63,293 bases of DNA from a virus. The notes under the pieces are model-generated. The model ran no database searches. It was not told the origin of the DNA and saw nothing but the letters and a program-made list of their open reading frames with translations. Of the stretch, positions 989-54,598 are shown piece by piece. Every line of letters begins with the position of its first letter. The stretch's first letter is position 1. The stretch is from positions 1-63,293 of IMG/VR virus record IMGVR_UViG_3300032006_002122. The stretch is one strand, 5' to 3'. The position numbers were made by a program, and so were the translations under genes.

Positions 989-1680
989 AGTTTTAACCTT
1001 GGTGTTACAGATTGTTCGCAGTGGCTAAATATACCCTTGTCATGAATTATCTTTGGGAAAACATAGTATGAATTGACAAACGGGTGGAAGAATCTATTTA
1101 GCTGACTATCTATGGGTCCGATGGGGTGTAATTGTAATAGTGGATCAAACATTCTTTGGTTTATTACAACCCCGTGTAATCCACCGCATGTAAAATGAGC
1201 ATTTCTTACTCGCTCTATTCCAGTTCTCTTGTTGGAATTATATTCTTTTTCAACATTTTGATTGTAATCATCTGATTCATATCCTATCCACCATCCTAAA
1301 AATAAGAAATCAAAATCTAGAGAGTTTAACTCACTGGATAGGCTTTCTGCAACTTCATCGTACCTGTTTGTAAAATACGCATCGTCTTCAAGAAAAAGAA
1401 CATTATTGAGACCTTCGTCTTTTGATTTAAGTATCATCTTCTTGTGAGACAAAAAGGCATTAAAGTGGTGAATTCTACCAGTGGGATTTCCGTAACCCCA
1501 GTGCGGTGGAACATCTTTAATGTCCAAATGGTCATATTCTGATTCTGGAAAAATATTCCCTTCACCAACTAAGAATCTATCAAATTTTAAACCTTTAGAT
1601 TCACAATGATTTTGTAAATCTTCCCACTCTTCCTGTCTCTTATCGAGACAAAGGCAAATAGCCTTGTCTACGAATTGCAT
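985..1680 (-). CDS. Glycosyltransferase family 25-like (LPS-type)
   Basis: This 231-residue protein resembles GT25 enzymes that add hexoses to lipopolysaccharide or other glycans. A family-typical N-terminal strand (AICLCLDKR, residues 7-15) is followed by the motif VLFLEDDA at about 94-101, which matches the GT25 'lEDDa' metal and nucleotide-sugar site. GPIDSQLNR near 188-196 matches the family's 'pvD' region. Length is near the usual 200-270. It overlaps the upstream gene by 13 bases and couples to the downstream gene by an ATGA overlap. Acceptor and donor cannot be read from the sequence. It is part of the glycan cluster at the left end of the window. Confidence 0.8.
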   Translation of the reverse strand: MQFVDKAICLCLDKRQEEWEDLQNHCESKGLKFDRFLVGEGNIFPESEYDHLDIKDVPPHWGYGNPTGRIHHFNAFLSHKKMILKSKDEGLNNVLFLEDDAYFTNRYDEVAESLSSELNSLDFDFLFLGWWIGYESDDYNQNVEKEYNSNKRTGIERVRNAHFTCGGLHGVVINQRMFDPLLQLHPIGPIDSQLNRFFHPFVNSYYVFPKIIHDKGIFSHCEQSVTPRLKL

Positions 1681-2777
1681 TTTATAACCCTGTCAAGCAA
1701 ATGTTTTGCTTCTGATTCTGTAGAAAGGTTCTTTTTTGTGTATTCAAAAAGCTCGTATGAAACCCTGCTATATTCATCTTCATCAAATATATCATGGTCA
1801 ATGTGTCCTGCGGGAACAGATTTTTGCAAATCATTTGCTTCTGGTCTACAGCTTCCAAGATAGGTATCAACTTCTGGATTCCAGTCTCTTGAGGTGTGTG
1901 GAACAATCCCTTTAATTTTTTTTGCTTCTATCATTAGATCTTTAGGAAATCTAACCATGGTGTCTTTTGGACATATTTCAATATTAGTAAAGAAAGGTAC
2001 GCAGCCACATGCGAGTATTTCATAATGCCTCATGCAGTCCCAGCCCTCATCCATATGGTTCCATTGACCCTTTTTACAGGTGTATGCAAACCTACTTATT
2101 CTATAGTCTCTATAATATGGATCTTCATGATCATATACATAGGTATCATGGTTCCACCAAGGAACAAGTCTTGCAAAATCTTTTTCTTTTTCTTCTGGGC
2201 CAAGCATCTTCTCTTTTGGAATTGAAAATGATATTGGAAAGGCTGTATCCGAATGGGTTTCGTTAAGCTCTCTTTTGAAATAAAGTCCGTACTCAAAGAA
2301 GTCTGTGTTTATTTTTGGTCGGTCCCAACCTTCTATCAGTATTATTTCTTCTTTTTTATAGTATTGTCTTAGATTGTTTAAAATTTCATACAAGCCAACG
2401 AAGTCAAACCCTTCCCATCCAACAAACGATATAGTCCAGTGTATTGGTAGTATGATATAATCATAGTAATGATTTCTAATCTTGGATTCAATATCTTCTC
2501 TATCTATATTTAACTCTTTTAGCAGTCTCCATATTGTAAAACCTTTTCCGTGGAAATTTTTCACAACTTCCTCGTCGGCACTATCATACATGTGCCACAT
2601 TTCAATATGGTCAACAACATCTTCCCCAAGAATGGATCTCAAGCCGTGGAATAGGCTGTCGTGAAGATAGTCTGCAACATTTGCTGAGTTTTCATCAAAC
2701 GGGCGCACACCGTGCGTGCTTCCACTATACATATTCTGAAATGTTGTTCCCAGTAAATGAGAAAAAAGAACTTTCAT
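1668..2777 (-). CDS. Exostosin/GT47-like glycosyltransferase
   Basis: This 369-residue protein carries near residues 246-263 the motif WDCMRHYEILACGCVPFF, which matches the acidic helix and glycine turn of GT-B transferases of the exostosin or CgeB type ('R..E.la.GcvPv'). The N-terminal half looks like the acceptor-binding domain but has no motif I can name. No signal peptide or membrane segment is visible, so it is cytoplasmic. The ATG at 2777 overlaps the stop of the upstream epimerase by 4 bases. Substrates are unknown. The GT-B assignment is from motif recognition only. Confidence 0.65.
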   Translation of the reverse strand: MKVLFSHLLGTTFQNMYSGSTHGVRPFDENSANVADYLHDSLFHGLRSILGEDVVDHIEMWHMYDSADEEVVKNFHGKGFTIWRLLKELNIDREDIESKIRNHYYDYIILPIHWTISFVGWEGFDFVGLYEILNNLRQYYKKEEIILIEGWDRPKINTDFFEYGLYFKRELNETHSDTAFPISFSIPKEKMLGPEEKEKDFARLVPWWNHDTYVYDHEDPYYRDYRISRFAYTCKKGQWNHMDEGWDCMRHYEILACGCVPFFTNIEICPKDTMVRFPKDLMIEAKKIKGIVPHTSRDWNPEVDTYLGSCRPEANDLQKSVPAGHIDHDIFDEDEYSRVSYELFEYTKKNLSTESEAKHLLDRVIKCNS

Positions 2778-3730
2778 GTAAGCATATCCAGTACTGCTTG
2801 AGCAACTGATCTGCTCGAATTTTTATACTTTGGCTCCCATCCAATACTTTTAAGTTTATCGTTAGAAGCTCTTATAATTCTATTGTCACCCTTCCAGTTG
2901 GAGCCTTCTCCGAGCCACTTTATATCTCTTTCAACGTCCATGGTATCTATAACGGTTTGAGCCACTTGTTCTATGCTGATAGAATTATCTGGTACAACAT
3001 TATATATTTGGTCTTCCCTTTTATCTAACGCAACTCTTATAAAAGCTTCCACAGCATCGCTTATATAACAATACGGTTTAGTAGATCCGGGGTGAGAACC
3101 CAGAACTTCTAAGGTGTCTGTATTGGAATTTATCTTTCTAATAAAATCTTTTATCACGCCATGGGTAACACCACTACCAATTGTTGCACAAAGTCTCAAA
3201 ATGCTTCCCCGACATTTTCCCATGCTTATATAAGATCGGAGAAGATTCTCTGACGCTAGTTTTGACACACCGTAGACGGAAACTGGGTGGGTGGCGTGAC
3301 TTTCTGTGTAAGACCCTTCTTCGTCTAGAGAAAAGAGCCAGTCTCCATAAACTATCACAGATGAGGCTAATATTACTTTGCAATTTTCAGGACAGAAATG
3401 AACCACTTTATGGGTTCCTATGACATTATCGTTTATGATCTTGTGCGGATCTTTTTCGTTAAGTTTTGGAACAGCATTTCCCGCCAGATGAAAAATTATA
3501 TCAGGATTATGCTGTCTGCAAATACCTCTAAACATGTTAAAAGTTGGAGATTCAGAATCAGAAAAAGACAAATCGCAGGTGTAGTGTCTGTGTGAGTAAG
3601 GAGAACATCCAGAAAATATAGGAGACTTGCTCATCGTGGTTATGTCTGTAAAGATATCTGGGTGTTCAGACAATCTCTTTACTAGATGTCTTCCAAGAAA
3701 TCCAGTTGCCCCAGTTACTATAACTCTCAT
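2774..3730 (-). CDS. NAD-dependent sugar epimerase/dehydratase (extended SDR)
   Basis: This 318-residue short-chain dehydrogenase has the Rossmann signature GATGFLGR at residues 7-14 and the catalytic Y-x3-K in YGVSK (153-157), preceded by an LASS strand with the expected serine. Length is normal for nucleotide-sugar epimerases, 4,6-dehydratases and reductases. It probably interconverts a nucleotide sugar used by the adjacent transferases. The exact reaction (UDP-hexose epimerase, dTDP-sugar reductase or other) cannot be decided here. It overlaps both neighbours by 4 bases. Confidence 0.85.
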   Translation of the reverse strand: MRVIVTGATGFLGRHLVKRLSEHPDIFTDITTMSKSPIFSGCSPYSHRHYTCDLSFSDSESPTFNMFRGICRQHNPDIIFHLAGNAVPKLNEKDPHKIINDNVIGTHKVVHFCPENCKVILASSVIVYGDWLFSLDEEGSYTESHATHPVSVYGVSKLASENLLRSYISMGKCRGSILRLCATIGSGVTHGVIKDFIRKINSNTDTLEVLGSHPGSTKPYCYISDAVEAFIRVALDKREDQIYNVVPDNSISIEQVAQTVIDTMDVERDIKWLGEGSNWKGDNRIIRASNDKLKSIGWEPKYKNSSRSVAQAVLDMLT

Positions 3731-4779
3731 TTCAGATCTCCCAAAACGAATTCTGCAAGCCTATCGCATTTCATCTTTTCCTTTTCCAGATCAAGATTTT
3801 CAAAAATTGTCGAGACTCTGTGGAAATAGGTATGGTTATTCAAAACGCAATTGTAACCCTTTTCTATATGCTCTTCTCTTTCTTCTGGGTTTTTTATGTA
3901 ATGATCTATAAGATCTAGAAAGTCTTGTGGACTCTTGGCGTATAAAACTTCACCATCTTTAAAAACATCTTCTGCCATTGATTGGACATAATCTGATATA
4001 CAAAAACCCTTACTCATCAAAACCTTAAACGGTCTTTCTATTATATCATATCCAAATTCTTGAGAGTGTGGCTCACTAATATTTGGAGAAATTGTTGCAG
4101 ATCTAAATACATTTTTTACAGATTCGTTGGGAAGAAAACCAAGATACTGGACAACTGGCCACCCCTGATTTCCGAAAATTTTTACGTTGTACTTTCCAAC
4201 GGGGTGGCAAAGAGGTATTAGGTATTTATCTATAGACTTAGCCTTGTAATCCCAATAACCACCAATAAATGAAACATCACTTTTCAAAGAGTCTTCAAAT
4301 TCTGAATCAATATAGTCAAAAACATCCGCCCCGTGAAGCATCGACACAACATTTATTCCCTCGCTGGACCAATTGTTGTGAGTTTGGCTCATCCATTTAT
4401 CATGATAATGGTTATACACAAAGTCAGGTTTGCCTGTTTTTTCTTTTAGCTCTTTCACTAATGTTTTTTCATCTTCTCTAGCGACAAGAACAGGAAACCT
4501 TTTAAAATCAATTTCATTTTGCATATCACCCCAGTCTGAAGCCCTCATGACAACCTTCATGTCTGGTCTTTCGGAGATGCATTTTACAACAGATTTTGTG
4601 AGGTTGTAAGTTTGGCCAATAAAAATATCAGGATCGAATTCGTCAAACGCATCGAATGCTGGTTTTCTTTCTATATCCCAAAATACAACTTCATGGCCAA
4701 GCTCATTAAAAACTTTAGCCCAGCCCAGCCTTATGTAAAAATGGGCATGCGGCCCGTCGTTAGATATCATTATTTTCAT
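3727..4779 (-). CDS. CgeB-like glycosyltransferase
   Basis: This 350-residue protein resembles the CgeB/YkvP group of GT-B transferases. The C-terminal half has ISPNISEPHSQ followed by ERPFKVLMSKGF at about 248-259, which matches the 'R.fE.lasGg' nucleotide-sugar-binding helix. It then has DVFKDGEVLYAKSPQD, the usual 'f.dg.e.v.y.d..eL' segment. The N-terminus (MKIMISNDGPHAHFYIR) is the first Rossmann strand. It is cytoplasmic and soluble, and sits in the glycan cluster with 4-base overlaps on both sides. Donor and acceptor are unknown. Confidence 0.7.
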   Translation of the reverse strand: MKIMISNDGPHAHFYIRLGWAKVFNELGHEVVFWDIERKPAFDAFDEFDPDIFIGQTYNLTKSVVKCISERPDMKVVMRASDWGDMQNEIDFKRFPVLVAREDEKTLVKELKEKTGKPDFVYNHYHDKWMSQTHNNWSSEGINVVSMLHGADVFDYIDSEFEDSLKSDVSFIGGYWDYKAKSIDKYLIPLCHPVGKYNVKIFGNQGWPVVQYLGFLPNESVKNVFRSATISPNISEPHSQEFGYDIIERPFKVLMSKGFCISDYVQSMAEDVFKDGEVLYAKSPQDFLDLIDHYIKNPEEREEHIEKGYNCVLNNHTYFHRVSTIFENLDLEKEKMKCDRLAEFVLGDLK

Positions 4780-11814: not shown

Positions 11815-12204
11815 TCAGAACGGTGCTTCGGCTGTCTCTTCCGTTCTCTCGCTAGATTCGTTGTTATTTTCAGAATTGCTAGATGGTCTTTTGCCAAATA
11901 GTTTGAAATTATTTACACGAAATCTTACTTGAGACTTCTTGTTACCCTCTTTGTCTTCCCAACGGTTCTGTCTCGCTGTTGTAGAAACAGCTATTTCATC
12001 ACCCTTAAAACAATACTTGCTAATTGTTGTTGCCCCAGAGTCCCAAGCCTCAAAATCAAAATAATCGGTTTTTCTTGTCTTGGTTCCATCCTTTTGTCTT
12101 CTGTACTCATTAATAGCAAGAGTAAATCTTACTACATTTGTATCATTGACTTCTATAAGCTCTGGGTCGCTAACTAGTCTTCCTATAAACGTGCAGTTAT
12201 TCAT
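11815..12204 (-). CDS. ssb: Single-stranded DNA-binding protein
   Basis: This 129-residue OB-fold protein begins MNNCTFIGRLVSDPEL, the classic bacterial SSB start. It continues with VVRFTLAINE, TDYFDFEAWD and YCFKGDEIAVS. It ends in a flexible acidic tail, EETAEAPF, like the SSB tip that docks replication partners. I chose ATG 12204 because the family begins here; an upstream in-frame start at 12273 would overlap the previous gene by about 60 bases. It is the last gene before a strong terminator, downstream of polymerase, primase and helicase, so it serves phage replication. Confidence 0.95.
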   Translation of the reverse strand: MNNCTFIGRLVSDPELIEVNDTNVVRFTLAINEYRRQKDGTKTRKTDYFDFEAWDSGATTISKYCFKGDEIAVSTTARQNRWEDKEGNKKSQVRFRVNNFKLFGKRPSSNSENNNESSERTEETAEAPF

Positions 12205-12214
12205 TATATTTTTC

Positions 12215-12712
12215 CTAAAAAACTTCGGTCTGTAGCATCTTATATCCCAATTGCACTCCGTAATGCTCTGCAAGATCCTCCTGATTATAAGAGTCTGGGT
12301 GCGAAATGTAAAACAACTCAGCCAATTTGCCCTCTTTTATTATATCATCTGGGGACAATGGTCCACCCATTATGTCTACAAAGGATGAATCTTTTGGTAA
12401 TTCATCCCCCGTTTCGCTGTAATAAAAAATTAATTTTGGGGAAATTTTTAAACTGTCAACCTTTCTTAGTATGTCTCTGAAGATTATTATCCTCATGGCA
12501 TAAACTGGACACTCTGTGATGCTCTCATCTGAACTCATGGAGGATCGGTATAAAAAACCGTCCTCCTCCATGACATAAGAAAAAATTTCAGATTCTATAA
12601 ACGGCGTGGTAACTAAGTTGGCGGGAAATTCTGCAATACAGCCGTCGACACCTTTCGACTTGGTGATTCTTATAAAATAATCGTTCTCTTTAAAAAATTC
12701 TTCCACGTACAT
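12215..12712 (-). CDS. Hypothetical protein, 165 aa
   Basis: This protein is not recognised. It is acidic and predicted soluble. It sits 10 bases upstream of ssb and 32 bases downstream of the polymerase C-terminal gene, so it belongs to the replication unit. No catalytic or metal motif is visible. A polymerase- or SSB-associated accessory role is a guess from position only. Confidence 0.55.
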   Translation of the reverse strand: MYVEEFFKENDYFIRITKSKGVDGCIAEFPANLVTTPFIESEIFSYVMEEDGFLYRSSMSSDESITECPVYAMRIIIFRDILRKVDSLKISPKLIFYYSETGDELPKDSSFVDIMGGPLSPDDIIKEGKLAELFYISHPDSYNQEDLAEHYGVQLGYKMLQTEVF

Positions 12713-12744: not shown

Positions 12745-14391
12745 TTAAATTTGAGAGACGCTTTTTATTACGATGCCTTCTCGATTTCCGGTTTTTTCTC
12801 CAGATATGAGAACAGTATTTCCTTCCACTAGAAGGTCTTTATACTTTAACCACTCGTCAGAGAAAATAACAACAGAATCAAGCTCACAGGTGCTGTCTTC
12901 CACTGTTAGAAATCCCATTTTCATACCCTTGGATTTCCCTCTGGTTATAGTGTATTCTTCACATCTACTTATTGACACGGCAATTATAACCTTTCCCTCT
13001 CTCCCGTCAAATATTTCTTTGCATGTGCAGTTCGCCCGGCTGGTATCACAAGAATCAACTTTTGAATATGTAATAGAAACTCCCAAGTAATCCTCTTCCG
13101 TTTTTGATATCCAGTCTGGAGTATCTTCTAGGGGATAGGGTGGGTTATCAAGCTGTTTTAAAAGGTCTCCAACAATCTCTCTTCTGGAAACATTGAATGT
13201 TCCCCCGCCTTCTTTTGACAGGGGTTGAAGATCACGCATTGAATCTCTGAGGGAGTTCCATTTTTCAATACCTGACAAAATCCATTCCTGCTCTTTTTTT
13301 GTCAGTTTTTTCCAAGTGTCAAATTCGTACAACATTCTATTTCTGCTAACACCGCCGTGATCCAAACTTCCGGTAGAAATTAGAGAAGTTGTTAAAGTGG
13401 AAGTTATTTTATGAGAAACCGATACTAAAAATTCATACCAGCTAAAATCACTGATATTCTTATTCAGGGCTTCTTCCTGATCTTTTACGTTGGAAACCAA
13501 TTTGTCTACTTGGCTCTGACCTATAGACTTTATGTCTTTTAGTCCGAAATGTATCTTTTTATTATTTATTGAAAATTTGTCATTAATTATTTTAAGAGAC
13601 GGAGGGTAAACAAATATATTAGACAACTTGGCGTCTAAGACAAGCTCTTTGATTTCTTGTTGAGAATCTTGCTTGCCGTCTGCGTGATATAGGTAGCTAC
13701 AGTAAAAATCAAGAGGAAAATGACACTTGCAATAAGCAGACCAGTAACCACAAATAGCATAAGAAACTGCGTGACTCTTATTAAAAGCATATCTATTGGA
13801 TTTTTCGATCCAGCTAAATATCTCTTCCGCAATTTCTTTAGATACAACACCTTTGCTAGCCGCTCCTAAAAGAAAGGAATCTTTGACTTTTGACATCAGA
13901 TCGGCTTTTTTCTTGCCAATGGCTTTTCTGAGATTGTCAGCCTCTTTTAAGTCAAACCCAGCTATCTTTTGGGCTATTTGCATGCTCTGTTCTTGGTATA
14001 CAAGAACCCCTTGAGTGGACCTGAGAATTGGCTCAAGAGACTCGTGCATATATGTAACATCTTCAACTCCATTTTTTCGATCAGCATAGTGCTGTGTCAT
14101 GGATTTTCCGTCTACAATTGCTTTCAAGCAACCCGGACGAAGAAGTGCAGAAAGAGCGGCTAATTGCTCAATAGTCCTTGGTCGAATTCTTTTTGACCAA
14201 GATTTTCCCAAATTGCTTTCAAGCTGAAAGACCCCCTTGGTCCTCCCCTCGCATATTAAATTCCAAGTTTCTTCACAGTCATAATTGATATGATCTATGT
14301 CAAGAGATATAGACGGTAACCCGTTGTCTTCTCGTGTTTCTGTTCCAAGTTTTGTAAATTGACACCCACAGTTAAACGAACAATTTTCCAT
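12745..14391 (-). CDS. dnaE: DNA polymerase III alpha subunit, C-terminal part (fingers to OB fold)
   Basis: This 548-residue protein is the second half of a bacterial-type replicative polymerase. It begins with a small cysteine motif (CSFNCGC, residues 4-10), then enters the DnaE fingers at TKGVFQLES (51-59). Family motifs follow: ALLRPGCL, GVLVYQEQSMQIAQ, AIGKKKADLM and NKSHAVSYAICGYW. The end (about 455-548) looks like the OB-fold domain. It lacks the PHP domain and all three palm aspartates, which are in the gene at 15824-17776. ATG 14391 is preferred; a TTG lies six codons upstream. It overlaps the exonuclease gene by 20 bases. The two halves presumably assemble in trans. Confidence 0.93.
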   Translation of the reverse strand: MENCSFNCGCQFTKLGTETREDNGLPSISLDIDHINYDCEETWNLICEGRTKGVFQLESNLGKSWSKRIRPRTIEQLAALSALLRPGCLKAIVDGKSMTQHYADRKNGVEDVTYMHESLEPILRSTQGVLVYQEQSMQIAQKIAGFDLKEADNLRKAIGKKKADLMSKVKDSFLLGAASKGVVSKEIAEEIFSWIEKSNRYAFNKSHAVSYAICGYWSAYCKCHFPLDFYCSYLYHADGKQDSQQEIKELVLDAKLSNIFVYPPSLKIINDKFSINNKKIHFGLKDIKSIGQSQVDKLVSNVKDQEEALNKNISDFSWYEFLVSVSHKITSTLTTSLISTGSLDHGGVSRNRMLYEFDTWKKLTKKEQEWILSGIEKWNSLRDSMRDLQPLSKEGGGTFNVSRREIVGDLLKQLDNPPYPLEDTPDWISKTEEDYLGVSITYSKVDSCDTSRANCTCKEIFDGREGKVIIAVSISRCEEYTITRGKSKGMKMGFLTVEDSTCELDSVVIFSDEWLKYKDLLVEGNTVLISGEKTGNREGIVIKSVSQI

Positions 14392-15055
14392 CTGCAAAAG
14401 CTTTCTCAAATTTCGTCTTGGGAGCCATTGAACGATAAAACTTCATAAATCTTATAAGAATATTTGCAGTATCTTTTACATCCTTGAGTGCGTCATGGGC
14501 ATTTTCTGTGCTTAATCCCATCCAGTCTCTCATAGAATCCATACTGATAGATTTGATATCTGGATTATTTTCTGTCCATAGCCAAATAATATCCATAACA
14601 TCAATTTTATTGATTTTGCTAAACAGACCTTGCTCGTTAGTTTTTTTATTAGTTGGTCCATACTGTTGGCACATTCGCTCAACTATATGCATATCAAAAC
14701 CGTTTATATTATAACCAACAGGAATCGGGGCAAAGAATTGCGTTTTCTTAAAATTATATTTATTAACAAAGTTTGAAAACTTTTGCCACACTTGTTTGGG
14801 AGCGGGGGCTTTAGCCAACTCTTTTCTTGTTTTATTGGTTATTTCAAGAGCTTCGTCTTCAAGTGGGTCTAAACCCATCTCTATGGCTTTGTCGTCATCT
14901 AGTATTGGTCTTATTTCACTGTTAAAGGTGCCTCCCGGCTGCAATTTTAATTTCCTGCCGTGGATAGCGACCGCAGCTATTTGAGTGGGTTGGGTCTTGT
15001 GAGGGTTTCTAGATCCGGTTTCAAAATCAAGAACAATCAAGTCTCTATAATTCAT
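14372..15055 (-). CDS. DnaQ-like 3'-5' exonuclease (DEDDh)
   Basis: This 227-residue protein has the DEDDh exonuclease motifs. LIVLDFETGSRNP (7-19) supplies the first D and E. NGFDMHIVERM supplies the second D. NAHDALKDVKDTANIL supplies the H and the last D. Placed between the two halves of DNA polymerase III alpha, it is very likely the proofreading subunit. It overlaps the downstream polymerase gene by 20 bases and the upstream UDG gene by 11. Length is in the range of epsilon-type subunits. Confidence 0.92.
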   Translation of the reverse strand: MNYRDLIVLDFETGSRNPHKTQPTQIAAVAIHGRKLKLQPGGTFNSEIRPILDDDKAIEMGLDPLEDEALEITNKTRKELAKAPAPKQVWQKFSNFVNKYNFKKTQFFAPIPVGYNINGFDMHIVERMCQQYGPTNKKTNEQGLFSKINKIDVMDIIWLWTENNPDIKSISMDSMRDWMGLSTENAHDALKDVKDTANILIRFMKFYRSMAPKTKFEKAFADGKLFV

Positions 15056-15629
15056 CTAATACGCTCCTAGCAAAAGCAAAGTGTTCTTTGGTTTCTTCTA
15101 GCTTATCTCTCCCGTGCTGCAAAAGGTAGCTTGGGTGATAGCACGGAACTATTGTTGATCCTATGTAATCAACATGTTTAGCAATTCCAACTATACTTTT
15201 CATAGACGTGGACGGTTTTAGTTTTAGCAGAGTTTTTGATGCTACTGCTCCTAGGGTTATTATAACCTTGGGTTGGAGTTTTTTCAACTCGCTCCAGATC
15301 CAAATTTTACAGGACTGGATTTCGTCGGAGGTTGGAGGTCTATTTGATTTTCCATTATTTTTAGTTGGTCTACATTTCACCATATTGCTTATATATACAT
15401 TATTTTCTCTGCTTAGGTTGCAATCTTTAAGTATTTTATTCAAAAGCTCACCGGCTCTTCCGACAAAAGGCTCTCCCATTATTGACTCGTTTTCACCGAG
15501 AGCCTCTCCAACAATTACTATTTTAGCATCGTGGGGTCCAACTCCGGGTACAGGATGGCAACCATCAGGCATATCCTTGTGGAGGGGGCATCGTTTGCAA
15601 TTTCTTATTTTTTGCTGAATTTCCAGCAT
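15045..15629 (-). CDS. Uracil-DNA glycosylase, family 4-like (Fe-S)
   Basis: This 194-residue protein matches the family 4 / phage SPO1-polymerase-linked UDG superfamily. It has a CKRCPL pair (C11, C14), IVIVGEALGENE with the active-site loop (37-48), GRAGELLNKIL, VKCRPTKNN (C86) with a further C107, and YHPSYLLQHG with the catalytic histidine. The four cysteines fit a 4Fe-4S cluster. It removes uracil from DNA, which fits a phage that also carries dUTPase. It is located inside the split polymerase operon. Confidence 0.9.
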   Translation of the reverse strand: MLEIQQKIRNCKRCPLHKDMPDGCHPVPGVGPHDAKIVIVGEALGENESIMGEPFVGRAGELLNKILKDCNLSRENNVYISNMVKCRPTKNNGKSNRPPTSDEIQSCKIWIWSELKKLQPKVIITLGAVASKTLLKLKPSTSMKSIVGIAKHVDYIGSTIVPCYHPSYLLQHGRDKLEETKEHFAFARSVLDEL

Positions 15630-15855
15630 ATAGTTGTTTATCCAATTGTAAAAACTTATCTACAGCATTGTCCATATTATTATATATGGCACTAAAGACT
15701 GAAGATAGTCTATAATCTTCACAATGAACCTGATAAGTATCAAGTCTTTGTCTTATTACTGTATTATAGTAATTTCCTACCCTGCAAATGCTTAGAGAGT
15801 TTTTCTCTATAGCGCCTCCACACTCAAGTATTTCCACACATGACTCTTTCTTCAT
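15565..15855 (-). CDS. Hypothetical protein between the polymerase halves, 96 aa
   Basis: This protein is not recognised. It has a good Shine-Dalgarno (AGGAG, 9 bases before ATG 15855), and its start overlaps the end of the polymerase N-terminal gene by 32 bases. Its end overlaps the UDG start by 65 bases in another frame. Residues 1-30 contain three cysteines, and the rest is helical. It could be a linker or assembly factor for the split polymerase, but nothing in the sequence shows this. I saw no intein block motifs in it. Confidence 0.6.
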   Translation of the reverse strand: MKKESCVEILECGGAIEKNSLSICRVGNYYNTVIRQRLDTYQVHCEDYRLSSVFSAIYNNMDNAVDKFLQLDKQLYAGNSAKNKKLQTMPPPQGYA

Positions 15856-17776
15856 TATCGAAAGCTCCTAATTTACATAGCTGGTCACGCACTCCCATTA
15901 TCTTGTCTAATAAAGAGACACCGAGAATATCAAATTTTACATGACCCATAGATTCTAAATCCTCCATTTCAAGTCCAGCAATTTTTTCTTTGCTGTTTTT
16001 TTGCCTCACCATTGGGCAAACAGTGTTCAAGTCGTGAGACGAAATAACCACGCCCGCTGCGTGTTTTCCTTGTGATTTGAAAGTTCCTTCAATTCTCATT
16101 GCTTGTTCAAAAAGCTTGGAGTATTCTCCATCAAGAATACCATCTTCGGTTAGGTAGCACCAGTCCTTGAGGCTGTCTGGTTGATTTACCAACGTCCACA
16201 TTATTACAGAAGAACTATCCATCTCTTGAAGCTGGTCAGAAACTTCTGCTTCATGGGGGAGATTCTTAGTTATCCTGTTCATCTCGTCGTAAGAACATGC
16301 ATCGTTGGCTCTGAGAACTTCTTTTATTGCGCTTCTCCCCTGTAGCCGACCAAACGTTATCATCTGGCCAACCTTTTTCTGACCATATTTATTTCTAATA
16401 TATTCTATTGCATCGTCTCTCTTGTCTGCTGGAATATCTATATCAATATCTGGAAGAGAAACGTGTTCTTCTGTATTTCTGCCCGCGTTATAAAATCTTT
16501 CAAAAATCAATCCGTATTCAATAGGATCTACACGAGTTATCCCAATGAGGTAAGAAATTAGACAACCGGCAGCAGATCCTCTCCCCGGACCCGGAATCCA
16601 GTTCTCCTGTCTTGCGTAACGAACAATATCTCTAACGATAAGAAAGTATCCAGCAAGGTTTGCTTCCTTTATTACGAATAGCTCTTCTTTAATTCTTTCT
16701 AGGTATATATTTAAATTTTCTTCGTCGTCTATTTTCCCATTATTTTTTAATAACTTTTTCCACCCCTCTCTACATAGAGATGTTAAGAGGTCGTGTTCAG
16801 AAGAATATCCTTCATGGTTAAATTTTGGAAGCATTGGTTTGTCTAATATGTCATATTCTTCGCAAGTCTCGGATATAGCCAAGCTATTTCTAAGCTCTTC
16901 TTCTGTGTGTAGATCCACCATTTCGTCTTCAGACGGTATGTGGTAATTATTAGAACGAAAGAACGAAGAAAGCCCAACTTCTTGACCTTCAGATAGCTTC
17001 TTTTTTACATTCTTTAGGGTTGTTTTTAGTGCCGCACACAGCAGGAGCCTCTGATCTACCGCATCCTCCTTGGTTGGGTAGTGCGAGTCTGCGGTGGCCA
17101 CAGCGGGTATCCTCGTCTCTCTAGAGACCTCTCTGAGGCAATCTCCGATAACCCTTGCTGCCGGGGAATTCTCTTGGTCGATCAGTTGAATCTCTATGTA
17201 AAAATTTCCATCGCCAAAGATTTCCTGATACTTATTGGACAAAATTTTCGCTTCTTCAAGATAGTTGTCTTTAAGATGCTGCTTAACCTCATTTTCAGAC
17301 TGGGAATTATAAGCCTTTTTCCAGTCGTGAAATAGTATATTAGCAAGATCACTTCCCATGTGTCCGCTAAAAGCTATGAGATTTCCATCACAGTATTCTG
17401 ATAAAATATCTAGATCCAGCCTTGGCTTGAAGTAAAAAAGTTCTTCATCATTACTTCTGGATGTAGCCTCGATTAGTCTCTCCCATCCCACTTTATTCTT
17501 TGCGAGAACCACAAGATGGCTAAGCGTTCTGTTTTCTTTATCCTTTATGGTTGCAGACTTTTCAGATAAATAAAACTCACACCCCAGTATAGGCTTTATG
17601 TCATTTTCTCTCATTGACTTTACAAAAGATACAGCACCGGACACAGTTCCGTGGTCTGTTATTGCGCAAGATTTGTATCCCAAATCCTTACATCTTTTAG
17701 CAACCTGTTTAGGTTTTGATAGACCGTCCAGTAAAGAGTAGTGAGTGTGCAAATGTAGAGGAACCCACTTAGACAT
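15824..17776 (-). CDS. dnaE: DNA polymerase III alpha subunit, N-terminal part (PHP and palm)
   Basis: This 650-residue protein opens with an intact PHP domain: LHLHTHYSLLDG (7-18) and ITDHGT (39-44). The polymerase core follows with GPGRGSAAG (396-404), LPDIDIDIP with D443, D445 and D447, and VKFDILG with D616, the equivalent of the third catalytic aspartate in DnaE. It stops 34 residues later, just before the fingers. The rest of the polymerase is encoded 1.4 kb downstream at 12745-14391. All residues for nucleotidyl transfer are here, but the nucleotide-binding fingers are in the other protein. The start is 2 bases after a small membrane-protein gene. Confidence 0.95.
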   Translation of the reverse strand: MSKWVPLHLHTHYSLLDGLSKPKQVAKRCKDLGYKSCAITDHGTVSGAVSFVKSMRENDIKPILGCEFYLSEKSATIKDKENRTLSHLVVLAKNKVGWERLIEATSRSNDEELFYFKPRLDLDILSEYCDGNLIAFSGHMGSDLANILFHDWKKAYNSQSENEVKQHLKDNYLEEAKILSNKYQEIFGDGNFYIEIQLIDQENSPAARVIGDCLREVSRETRIPAVATADSHYPTKEDAVDQRLLLCAALKTTLKNVKKKLSEGQEVGLSSFFRSNNYHIPSEDEMVDLHTEEELRNSLAISETCEEYDILDKPMLPKFNHEGYSSEHDLLTSLCREGWKKLLKNNGKIDDEENLNIYLERIKEELFVIKEANLAGYFLIVRDIVRYARQENWIPGPGRGSAAGCLISYLIGITRVDPIEYGLIFERFYNAGRNTEEHVSLPDIDIDIPADKRDDAIEYIRNKYGQKKVGQMITFGRLQGRSAIKEVLRANDACSYDEMNRITKNLPHEAEVSDQLQEMDSSSVIMWTLVNQPDSLKDWCYLTEDGILDGEYSKLFEQAMRIEGTFKSQGKHAAGVVISSHDLNTVCPMVRQKNSKEKIAGLEMEDLESMGHVKFDILGVSLLDKIMGVRDQLCKLGAFDNEERVMCGNT

Positions 17777-52990: not shown

Positions 52991-53064
52991 TACCCTCGGC
53001 ACGACTCGAACGTGCGACCTACGGTTTAGAAGACCGTTGCTCTATCCAACTGAGCTACGAGGGC
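52991..53064 (-). tRNA. tRNA-Arg (anticodon TCT)
   Basis: A full cloverleaf is visible on the minus strand: acceptor GCCCTCG with CGAGGGT, D-arm GCTCAGTTGGATAGAGC, anticodon stem ACGGT/ACCGT around loop CTTCTAA, and T-arm GCACG-TTCGAGT-CGTGC. Anticodon TCT reads AGA. No CCA is encoded. It lies inside the P3 operon between coding genes. Confidence 0.95.
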
Positions 53065-54525: not shown

Positions 54526-54598
54526 TACCCCCGGATGGAATCGAACCATCGACTACCGCTTTATAAGAACGGCGCTCTAACCACTGAGCTACGGGGGC
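54526..54598 (-). tRNA. tRNA-Ile (anticodon TAT)
   Basis: A full cloverleaf is visible on the minus strand: acceptor GCCCCCG with CGGGGGT, D-arm GCTCAGTGGTTAGAGC, anticodon stem CCGTT/AGCGG with one G-T pair around loop CTTATAA, and T-arm ATGG-TTCGATT-CCAT. Anticodon TAT reads ATA. No CCA is encoded. It lies upstream of promoter P3, so it belongs to the preceding unit. Confidence 0.93.

Follow-up and report, generated by a model that had tools for sequence, protein, structure and literature searches.

A phage DNA polymerase III alpha encoded in two genes, with the break between palm and fingers and an exonuclease gene in the gap

In Aeromonas phage 25, the gene for the replicative DNA polymerase (gene 43) is split with a homing endonuclease at the break, and its two products, 43A and 43B, co-purify and are active, so that a replicative polymerase can evidently assemble and function in two pieces (PMC2988022). 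Within the C family, a split minimal DNA polymerase III (Pol III) alpha has been described in the group 2.2 jumbo phages (for example, Agrobacterium phage Atu_ph07), which also encode a B-family polymerase (Iyer et al. 2021, PMC7824862). Here we analyse a Pol III alpha encoded in two genes in the IMG/VR virus record IMGVR_UViG_3300032006_002122, the whole of which (63,293 bases) is referred to below as the window. Its N-terminal gene (N) encodes the PHP domain, thumb and palm, its C-terminal gene (C) encodes the fingers, helix-hairpin-helix (HhH) and OB regions, and a gene for a DEDDh 3′–5′ exonuclease (EXO) lies between them. We consider it very probable that this arrangement goes back to one ancient fission that produced a stable two-chain Pol III alpha with an exonuclease of its own.

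First, the two genes together make up one polymerase. The domain order across N and C is that of DnaE (PHP, palm and thumb, fingers, HhH, OB), and on the 1,190 positions of PHROG 405 (phage DNA polymerase) N covers 41–613 and C covers 622–1076 without overlap, so the halves are complementary. The TIGR00594 model is divided in the same way (N, 1–566; C, 576–1021). On Taq alpha, the N-family profile matches residues 6–628 and the C-family profile matches from residue 642 on, leaving about 13 residues of the linker (Taq numbering) outside both matches, and in E. coli alpha the break falls near residues 555–570. The break thus lies in the linker between palm and fingers, a variable stretch outside the conserved motifs. 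An initial annotation of this DNA had placed it where E. coli DnaE joins palm to fingers, and the comparison of both halves with full-length Taq and E. coli alpha agrees.

All three palm aspartates (the equivalents of E. coli D401, D403 and D555) are on the N chain. D443, D445, the adjacent D447 and D616 are unchanged in all 170 complete sets of N, EXO and C among the relatives described below, and across the family 18–46 amino acids (aa) of N follow the KFD motif. In C, the finger motifs are strongly conserved in alignments of the relatives. An AlphaFold model of the C chain alone, made with 56 sequences, has a pLDDT of 91.2 and a pTM of 0.85, and matches E. coli alpha 570–1073 with Z 21.4 over 458 aligned residues; the C half is therefore predicted, with high confidence, to fold alone. 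The alignment reaches E. coli residue 1073 and confirms in the model the OB region, for which the Pfam match is just below threshold (Table 1). C ends after this region, and no tau-binding domain was seen in it. The positions and contents that the initial annotation had given to the polymerase genes proved right by Pfam, PHROG and family models: the PHP domain and the palm aspartates in N, the fingers, HhH and OB in C (PF17657, PF14579, PF01336 and the model), and between them a DEDDh exonuclease, a family 4-like uracil-DNA glycosylase (UDG) and a 96-residue open reading frame (ORF), for which Pfam, TIGR00758 and homologues speak.

Table 1 Features of the split polymerase locus in the window
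Feature	Position	Strand	Evidence and remarks
N-terminal gene of split Pol III alpha (N), 650 aa	15824..17776	-	PHP, thumb and palm
PHP domain of N	17186-17758	-	Pfam PF02811, E 3.4e-41
Thumb and palm of N, DNA_pol3_alpha	15920-16789	-	PF07733, E 1.2e-70
Palm aspartates D443 and D445, motif PDIDID, then D447	16442..16450	-	Invariant in 170/170 relatives
Third palm aspartate D616, motif HVKFDILG	15929..15931	-	Invariant in 170/170; 34 codons left before the stop
96-aa ORF, small alpha-beta protein family	15565..15855	-	Directly after N; overlaps N by 32 nt
Family 4 uracil-DNA glycosylase (UDG)	15045..15629	-	PF03167, E 4.4e-34; TIGR00758, 141.9 bits against a cut-off of 125.3
DEDDh 3′-5′ exonuclease (EXO)	14372..15055	-	PF00929 (RNase_T), E 8.6e-14; PHROG 192, DNA polymerase exonuclease subunit, E 1.9e-23
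C-terminal gene of split Pol III alpha (C), 548 aa from ATG	12745..14391	-	Fingers, HhH and OB
N-terminal extension of C, CGCxF motif and later Cys	14302..14391	-	Alignments; low-confidence beta hairpin in model
Fingers of C, DNA_pol3_finger	13852-14313	-	PF17657, E 4.6e-47
HhH of C, HHH_6	13336-13617	-	PF14579, E 7e-8
OB of C	12772-12945	-	PF01336, E 4e-5; 23.9 bits against a cut-off of 27, just below the Pfam threshold
Single-strand binding protein (SSB), 3′ of C	11815..12273	-	PF00436, E 1.7e-21; order same in relatives

Next, the split is shared by every relative with both halves that we found. Relatives were gathered by a scan with the C protein and then by four further scans with alignments, each scan keeping at most the best 80 matches; a scan with the N protein only gave none, and alignments were needed. 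The C-protein scan yielded 20 viral contigs; almost all of them share the gene order N, exonuclease, C, with N and C at about 45–58% identity. Loci were counted as distinct if the 3′ end of N differed, so that near-identical contigs may count separately, and 208 distinct viral loci (given below, where needed, by L numbers) contained both halves. All 208 were split, with N before C and the exonuclease gene between; none was fused. At three loci that seemed to lack N, it was found 6.8–10.4 kb upstream on the same strand. Bacterial DnaE and further DnaE genes from phages were put to the same junction test, in which 78 records read through the palm–finger junction, three of them from actinophages in which the gene is broken elsewhere. 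By its palm aspartates and domain order the enzyme is a C-family polymerase of the DnaE type, and what departs from that type is the single polypeptide, a usual but not a necessary trait given the split forms already known, here replaced by two genes throughout. An assembly error or a frameshift is rejected because the identical arrangement recurs in about 200 viral contigs from many metagenomes, in agreement with the earlier reading that no frameshift remnants are visible.

The loci are diverse, comprising 54 lineages at <80% identity in N and 79 at <72% identity in C. A tree that includes 13 fused DnaE places the split forms on one side of a branch (SH-aLRT 100, stem 1.08); judged by this tree, they are one clade. 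Identity in the genome scan dropped from 47% for the less similar of its two split forms to 36% for the best bacterial DnaE, and the window is at most about 34% identical to cultured phage members (PHROG 405 type). Pairwise distances of N, EXO and C run in parallel (r 0.87–0.89, 170 complete sets), as expected for genes inherited together. Terminase matches in 11 of the 20 contigs fit tailed phages.

Exactly one PF07733 gene was present in each of 20 contigs of up to 244 kb, and neither DNA_pol_A nor DNA_pol_B was found in them. These counts bear on the proposal that N and C no longer form a polymerase, the phage using the host enzyme while the halves act separately (for example, as a PHP/palm repair enzyme). 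We found no beta clamp (sliding clamp) gene in 26 contigs, which suggests that these phages lean partly on the host or on other factors and gives the proposal some footing, but it is very unlikely given that N and C always co-occur with no A- or B-family polymerase beside them, that the palm residues are invariant and that the finger motifs are so strongly conserved.

The exonuclease is the sole constant gene of the interval between N and C. Its catalytic residues D10, E12, D121, H187 and D192 are all present in the window and invariant in 170 of 170 sets, and gene order supports its likely role as a proofreading subunit, which would bind the polymerase in the manner of epsilon. The PHP domain has been less constant. 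In the window its nine metal-binding residues are intact (H10, H12, D17, H42, E67, H87, H139, D230 and H232), and across the family all are intact in 83 of 170 N proteins, whereas 4–8 of the nine are lost in 43. Because the PHP loses ligands in these 43 while the exonuclease is kept in all, the comparison suggests that the indispensable proofreader is the exonuclease rather than the PHP domain. In the N genes of L002–L017 and L149–L181, the PHP is shortened and most metal ligands are gone; palm and exonuclease are intact.

In our reading of the locus, one message or coupled operon would yield both chains, with translation of C starting at the exonuclease stop. Each half would fold independently, as the model predicts for C only. 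The N chain, bringing the PHP, thumb and complete palm active site, would then dock non-covalently with the C chain, bringing fingers, HhH and OB, to form an ordinary C-family palm–finger active site, and the exonuclease encoded between them would act as proofreading partner. We suggest that a single split event took place in the ancestor of a large tailed-phage clade, probably by insertion in the palm–finger loop, with a mobile endonuclease as the likeliest kind of insertion, and that the split state became fixed because both pieces can fold by themselves. The gene overlaps are in keeping with such coupling: the C start codon (ATG) and the exonuclease stop overlap by 20 nt in the window and by 4, 8, 11 or 20 nt in most loci, and the successive overlaps through the window's polymerase block (32, 65, 11 and 20 bases) are as in a translationally coupled operon.

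Several points weigh against this reading of the locus. The contigs are mostly incomplete, and a second polymerase elsewhere is possible; only the closest matches of each scan were kept, so viruses outside this sample may carry fused sister genes. Among the relatives, EXO was nowhere found naturally fused to N or C. Finally, E. coli epsilon docks on the PHP of alpha, and with the PHP degenerate in part of the family an epsilon-type docking site may not be shared. A stronger role for the exonuclease can also be proposed, namely that of a bridge in an obligate three-chain replicase in which EXO (in some members with the small protein of the 96-aa ORF family) would hold the palm and fingers chains together. 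We regard this as improbable; if true, it would explain why the exonuclease gene stays in the gap in every member, and would amount to a third route to C-family proofreading, in addition to a separate epsilon and the insertion seen in PolC.

The interval between N and C is 0.6–10 kb long and contains unrelated genes, among them HNH (L006), endonuclease VII (L153) and TylF-like methyltransferase (L037) genes and DUF1501 and DUF1559 genes (L318/L392). By eye, a glutamate dehydrogenase (GDH)-like ORF (L060:7932-9140) and a GlmS-like aminotransferase ORF (L086:10223-11881) also lie between the halves. No single mobile element is common to all intervals. The interval is an insertion hotspot, which fits an origin of the fission via a mobile endonuclease. 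UDG genes lie between the halves at few of the roughly 210 loci (the window, L057–L060, L086, L098, L378 and L384), and, because the interval also takes up HNH, endonuclease VII, methyltransferase, GDH-like and GlmS-like genes, the UDG looks like one of several passengers. Its sporadic occurrence led us to reject it as part of the polymerase unit. The initial annotation had proposed a stable two-protein polymerase with proofreading and uracil repair in one operon; a two-protein Pol III alpha with an exonuclease in one operon is supported family-wide, its assembly into an active, proofreading polymerase being probable, and uracil repair is not upheld as a general part of the unit.

The 96-aa ORF has homologues detected by hidden Markov model at the same position in 100 of 168 loci and, on the strength of these, is a real gene. 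Its predicted fold is a helix, four strands and a helix (mean pLDDT 78), with no significant match in a fold search of PDB and BFVD (best E 0.18 and 0.018). Readings of the ORF as an intein fragment or as an otherwise absent portion of the polymerase are rejected because N and C fill the whole alignment and the ORF family has its own conserved core.

The hotspot also bears on the reason for the split. On a neutral account, which is compatible with a two-chain enzyme, the split is a fixed by-product of a mobile nuclease insertion and has no role, and the exonuclease was caught in the gap and kept there by operon order alone. On this account we are almost evenly divided, leaning slightly against it. 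The nuclease genes, UDG, methyltransferases and other insertions of the interval, the further breaks in single members (the C gene of L021; the N genes of L402, L354 and L424) and the same route in T4-type phages (PMC2988022) speak in its favour, whereas the exonuclease occupies the gap at every locus, even alongside 6–10 kb of other genes (L275–L277), while other insertions come and go. A neutral origin leaves this constancy unexplained, though linkage and age may explain it.

Two further routes would restore a single chain. In the first, a split intein would join the halves after translation, as in cyanobacterial DnaE, so that the mature enzyme would be one chain. Both split and contiguous inteins occur in the family (the N gene of L402; the C genes of L339, L345 and L351), but at the palm–finger break this route is barely credible. 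The break lies in a variable linker and not in a conserved motif. N ends 18–46 aa past its last motif and C begins shortly before the fingers, and because these ends lie so near their motifs there is no room at the break for an intein N part of about 100 aa. TIGR01443 and TIGR01445 (intein) at E 0.01 gave no match in N, C, the 96-aa ORF, EXO or UDG of the window, whereas the same search detected the inteins of L339, L351 and L402. With these positive controls, the profile search of the halves and of the ORFs between them leaves standing the earlier statement that no intein motifs are visible.

In the second, a self-splicing intron with the exonuclease among its ORFs would join the halves at the RNA level, which we hold to be highly improbable. 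Introns with nuclease ORFs are known in phage polymerase genes, and the N genes of L424 and L433, interrupted by a LAGLIDADG ORF without intein signs, may contain one. The interval, however, spans 0.6–10 kb and contains unrelated genes, and C has a separate start, which overlaps the exonuclease stop at varying places. Rfam matched no intron in the window or 15 relatives, a weak negative, since it matched none in L424 either and may miss diverged introns. Stop-codon read-through cannot join N to C across 0.6–10 kb of other genes. A two-chain enzyme with an intein-free break remains our preferred reading.

Single members carry additional interruptions. In L402 (1086-4122), the N gene is broken again by a split intein at GPGRG/SAAG (a slash marks the junction): N1 ends in the intein N part (TIGR01445, E 6.4e-7), a 283-aa nuclease-like ORF with a weak PF05367 match follows, and N2 starts with the intein C part (by eye, VCDLSV...VHN/SAAG), which makes L402 a fractured gene within an already split polymerase. 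Contiguous inteins interrupt the C genes of L339 (7760-10027), L345 (9522-11627) and L351 (8237-11113) at three different conserved motifs, RPG/C, FNK/SH and before YQEQ. The N gene is interrupted near PDIDID in L424, L425 and L433 (around 1026-4100) and in L354 (3147-4930); in L424 a 283-aa LAGLIDADG ORF without intein signs separates the N pieces, possibly as part of an intron, with none detected by Rfam. In L021 (7977-9666), the C gene is split again between the HhH and the C-terminal part (361 aa and 200 aa, a stop followed immediately by ATG), and N lies 10.4 kb upstream, leaving the polymerase in three pieces. The extension with the CGCxF motif at the start of the C chain occurs in much of the family but not in L002–L017-type members, which have lost it, nor in fused DnaE; with its later Cys it may have arisen with the split, as a metal cap or a structural one.

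The replication genes of the window are on the minus strand. In the order of transcription, a DnaB-like helicase, a primase, a nucleotide kinase-like gene (so labelled from sequence only), a PD-(D/E)XK nuclease and a 208-aa ORF precede the polymerase block, which runs N, 96-aa ORF, UDG, exonuclease and C, and a 165-aa ORF and then the SSB gene lie 3′ of C. Two tRNA genes (52991-53064 and 54526-54598) are also on the minus strand. As to hosts, the intervals of L318, L392 and L428 contain DUF1559 pilin-like and DUF1501 genes, which we take to be typical of Planctomycetota and a pointer to the hosts of some members. L196 and L195, both clade members, are in metagenome bins named Lokiarchaeota and Flavobacteriales, and are either mis-binned viral contigs or real host links.

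Few known enzymes are as constrained as replicative polymerases, yet in a large and diverse phage clade palm and fingers sit on separate chains and, in the sample seen, have apparently never been rejoined. Such a natural two-component Pol III bears on how palm and fingers cooperate, on whether splitting can adjust fidelity or assembly and on how fission becomes permanent in an essential enzyme. It also matters for annotation: the pair can readily be taken for two polymerases that are truncated or frameshifted, and a search for the PHP, the palm or the fingers recovers only half of the enzyme.

Among cellular systems, the bacterial Pol III core (alpha and epsilon) and PolC likewise combine a C-family polymerase with a PHP domain and a DEDDh exonuclease, and the domain order is otherwise as in DnaE1. 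Bacterial alpha is one chain, whereas the alpha of the window comes from two genes, the second ending after the OB region. PolC carries its exonuclease as a domain within the PHP, and the window encodes the exonuclease in a separate gene between palm and fingers. Cyanobacterial dnaE is also in two genes, but it is broken inside the fingers region and its products are joined by protein splicing, in contrast to the intein-free break described here. The PHROG 405 model is a single full-length protein, of which N and C together span 41–1076 of 1,190 positions.

Among phages, Atu_ph07 similarly makes a C-family polymerase as two proteins with no intein reported, but its break precedes PDIDID, so that the aspartates are on the C piece (a 177-aa ORF ending ...SEFLE and a 191-aa ORF starting MKNIPDIDID), whereas the window break follows the palm. 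Atu_ph07 has no PHP and its genes are about 180 kb apart; in the window the PHP is present and the genes are neighbours. No PolB was found in the 20 contigs of the window's clade that were searched, unlike in the group 2.2 jumbo phages. Krampusvirus (AnnaSerena gp56/gp57, RikSengupta gp61/gp63) and Mycobacterium phage Onyinye (gp82/gp84) likewise have adjacent DnaE halves, with a small ORF between them in two of the three and no exonuclease; their N piece of 317–346 aa places the break near the PHP–palm junction, with palm and fingers on one chain. Split gene 43 of Aeromonas phages 44RR and 25 resembles the window in giving a replicative phage polymerase as two chains, but it belongs to the B family, is confined to some T4-like phages and, as far as PMC2988022 tells, has no accompanying exonuclease gene. 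A palm–finger split with an embedded exonuclease gene was not described in the literature searched, a weak absence because most subscription papers lay outside it. Split phage polymerases are already known; what is notable here is the site of the break, the exonuclease gene embedded in it and the universality of the arrangement in a large clade.

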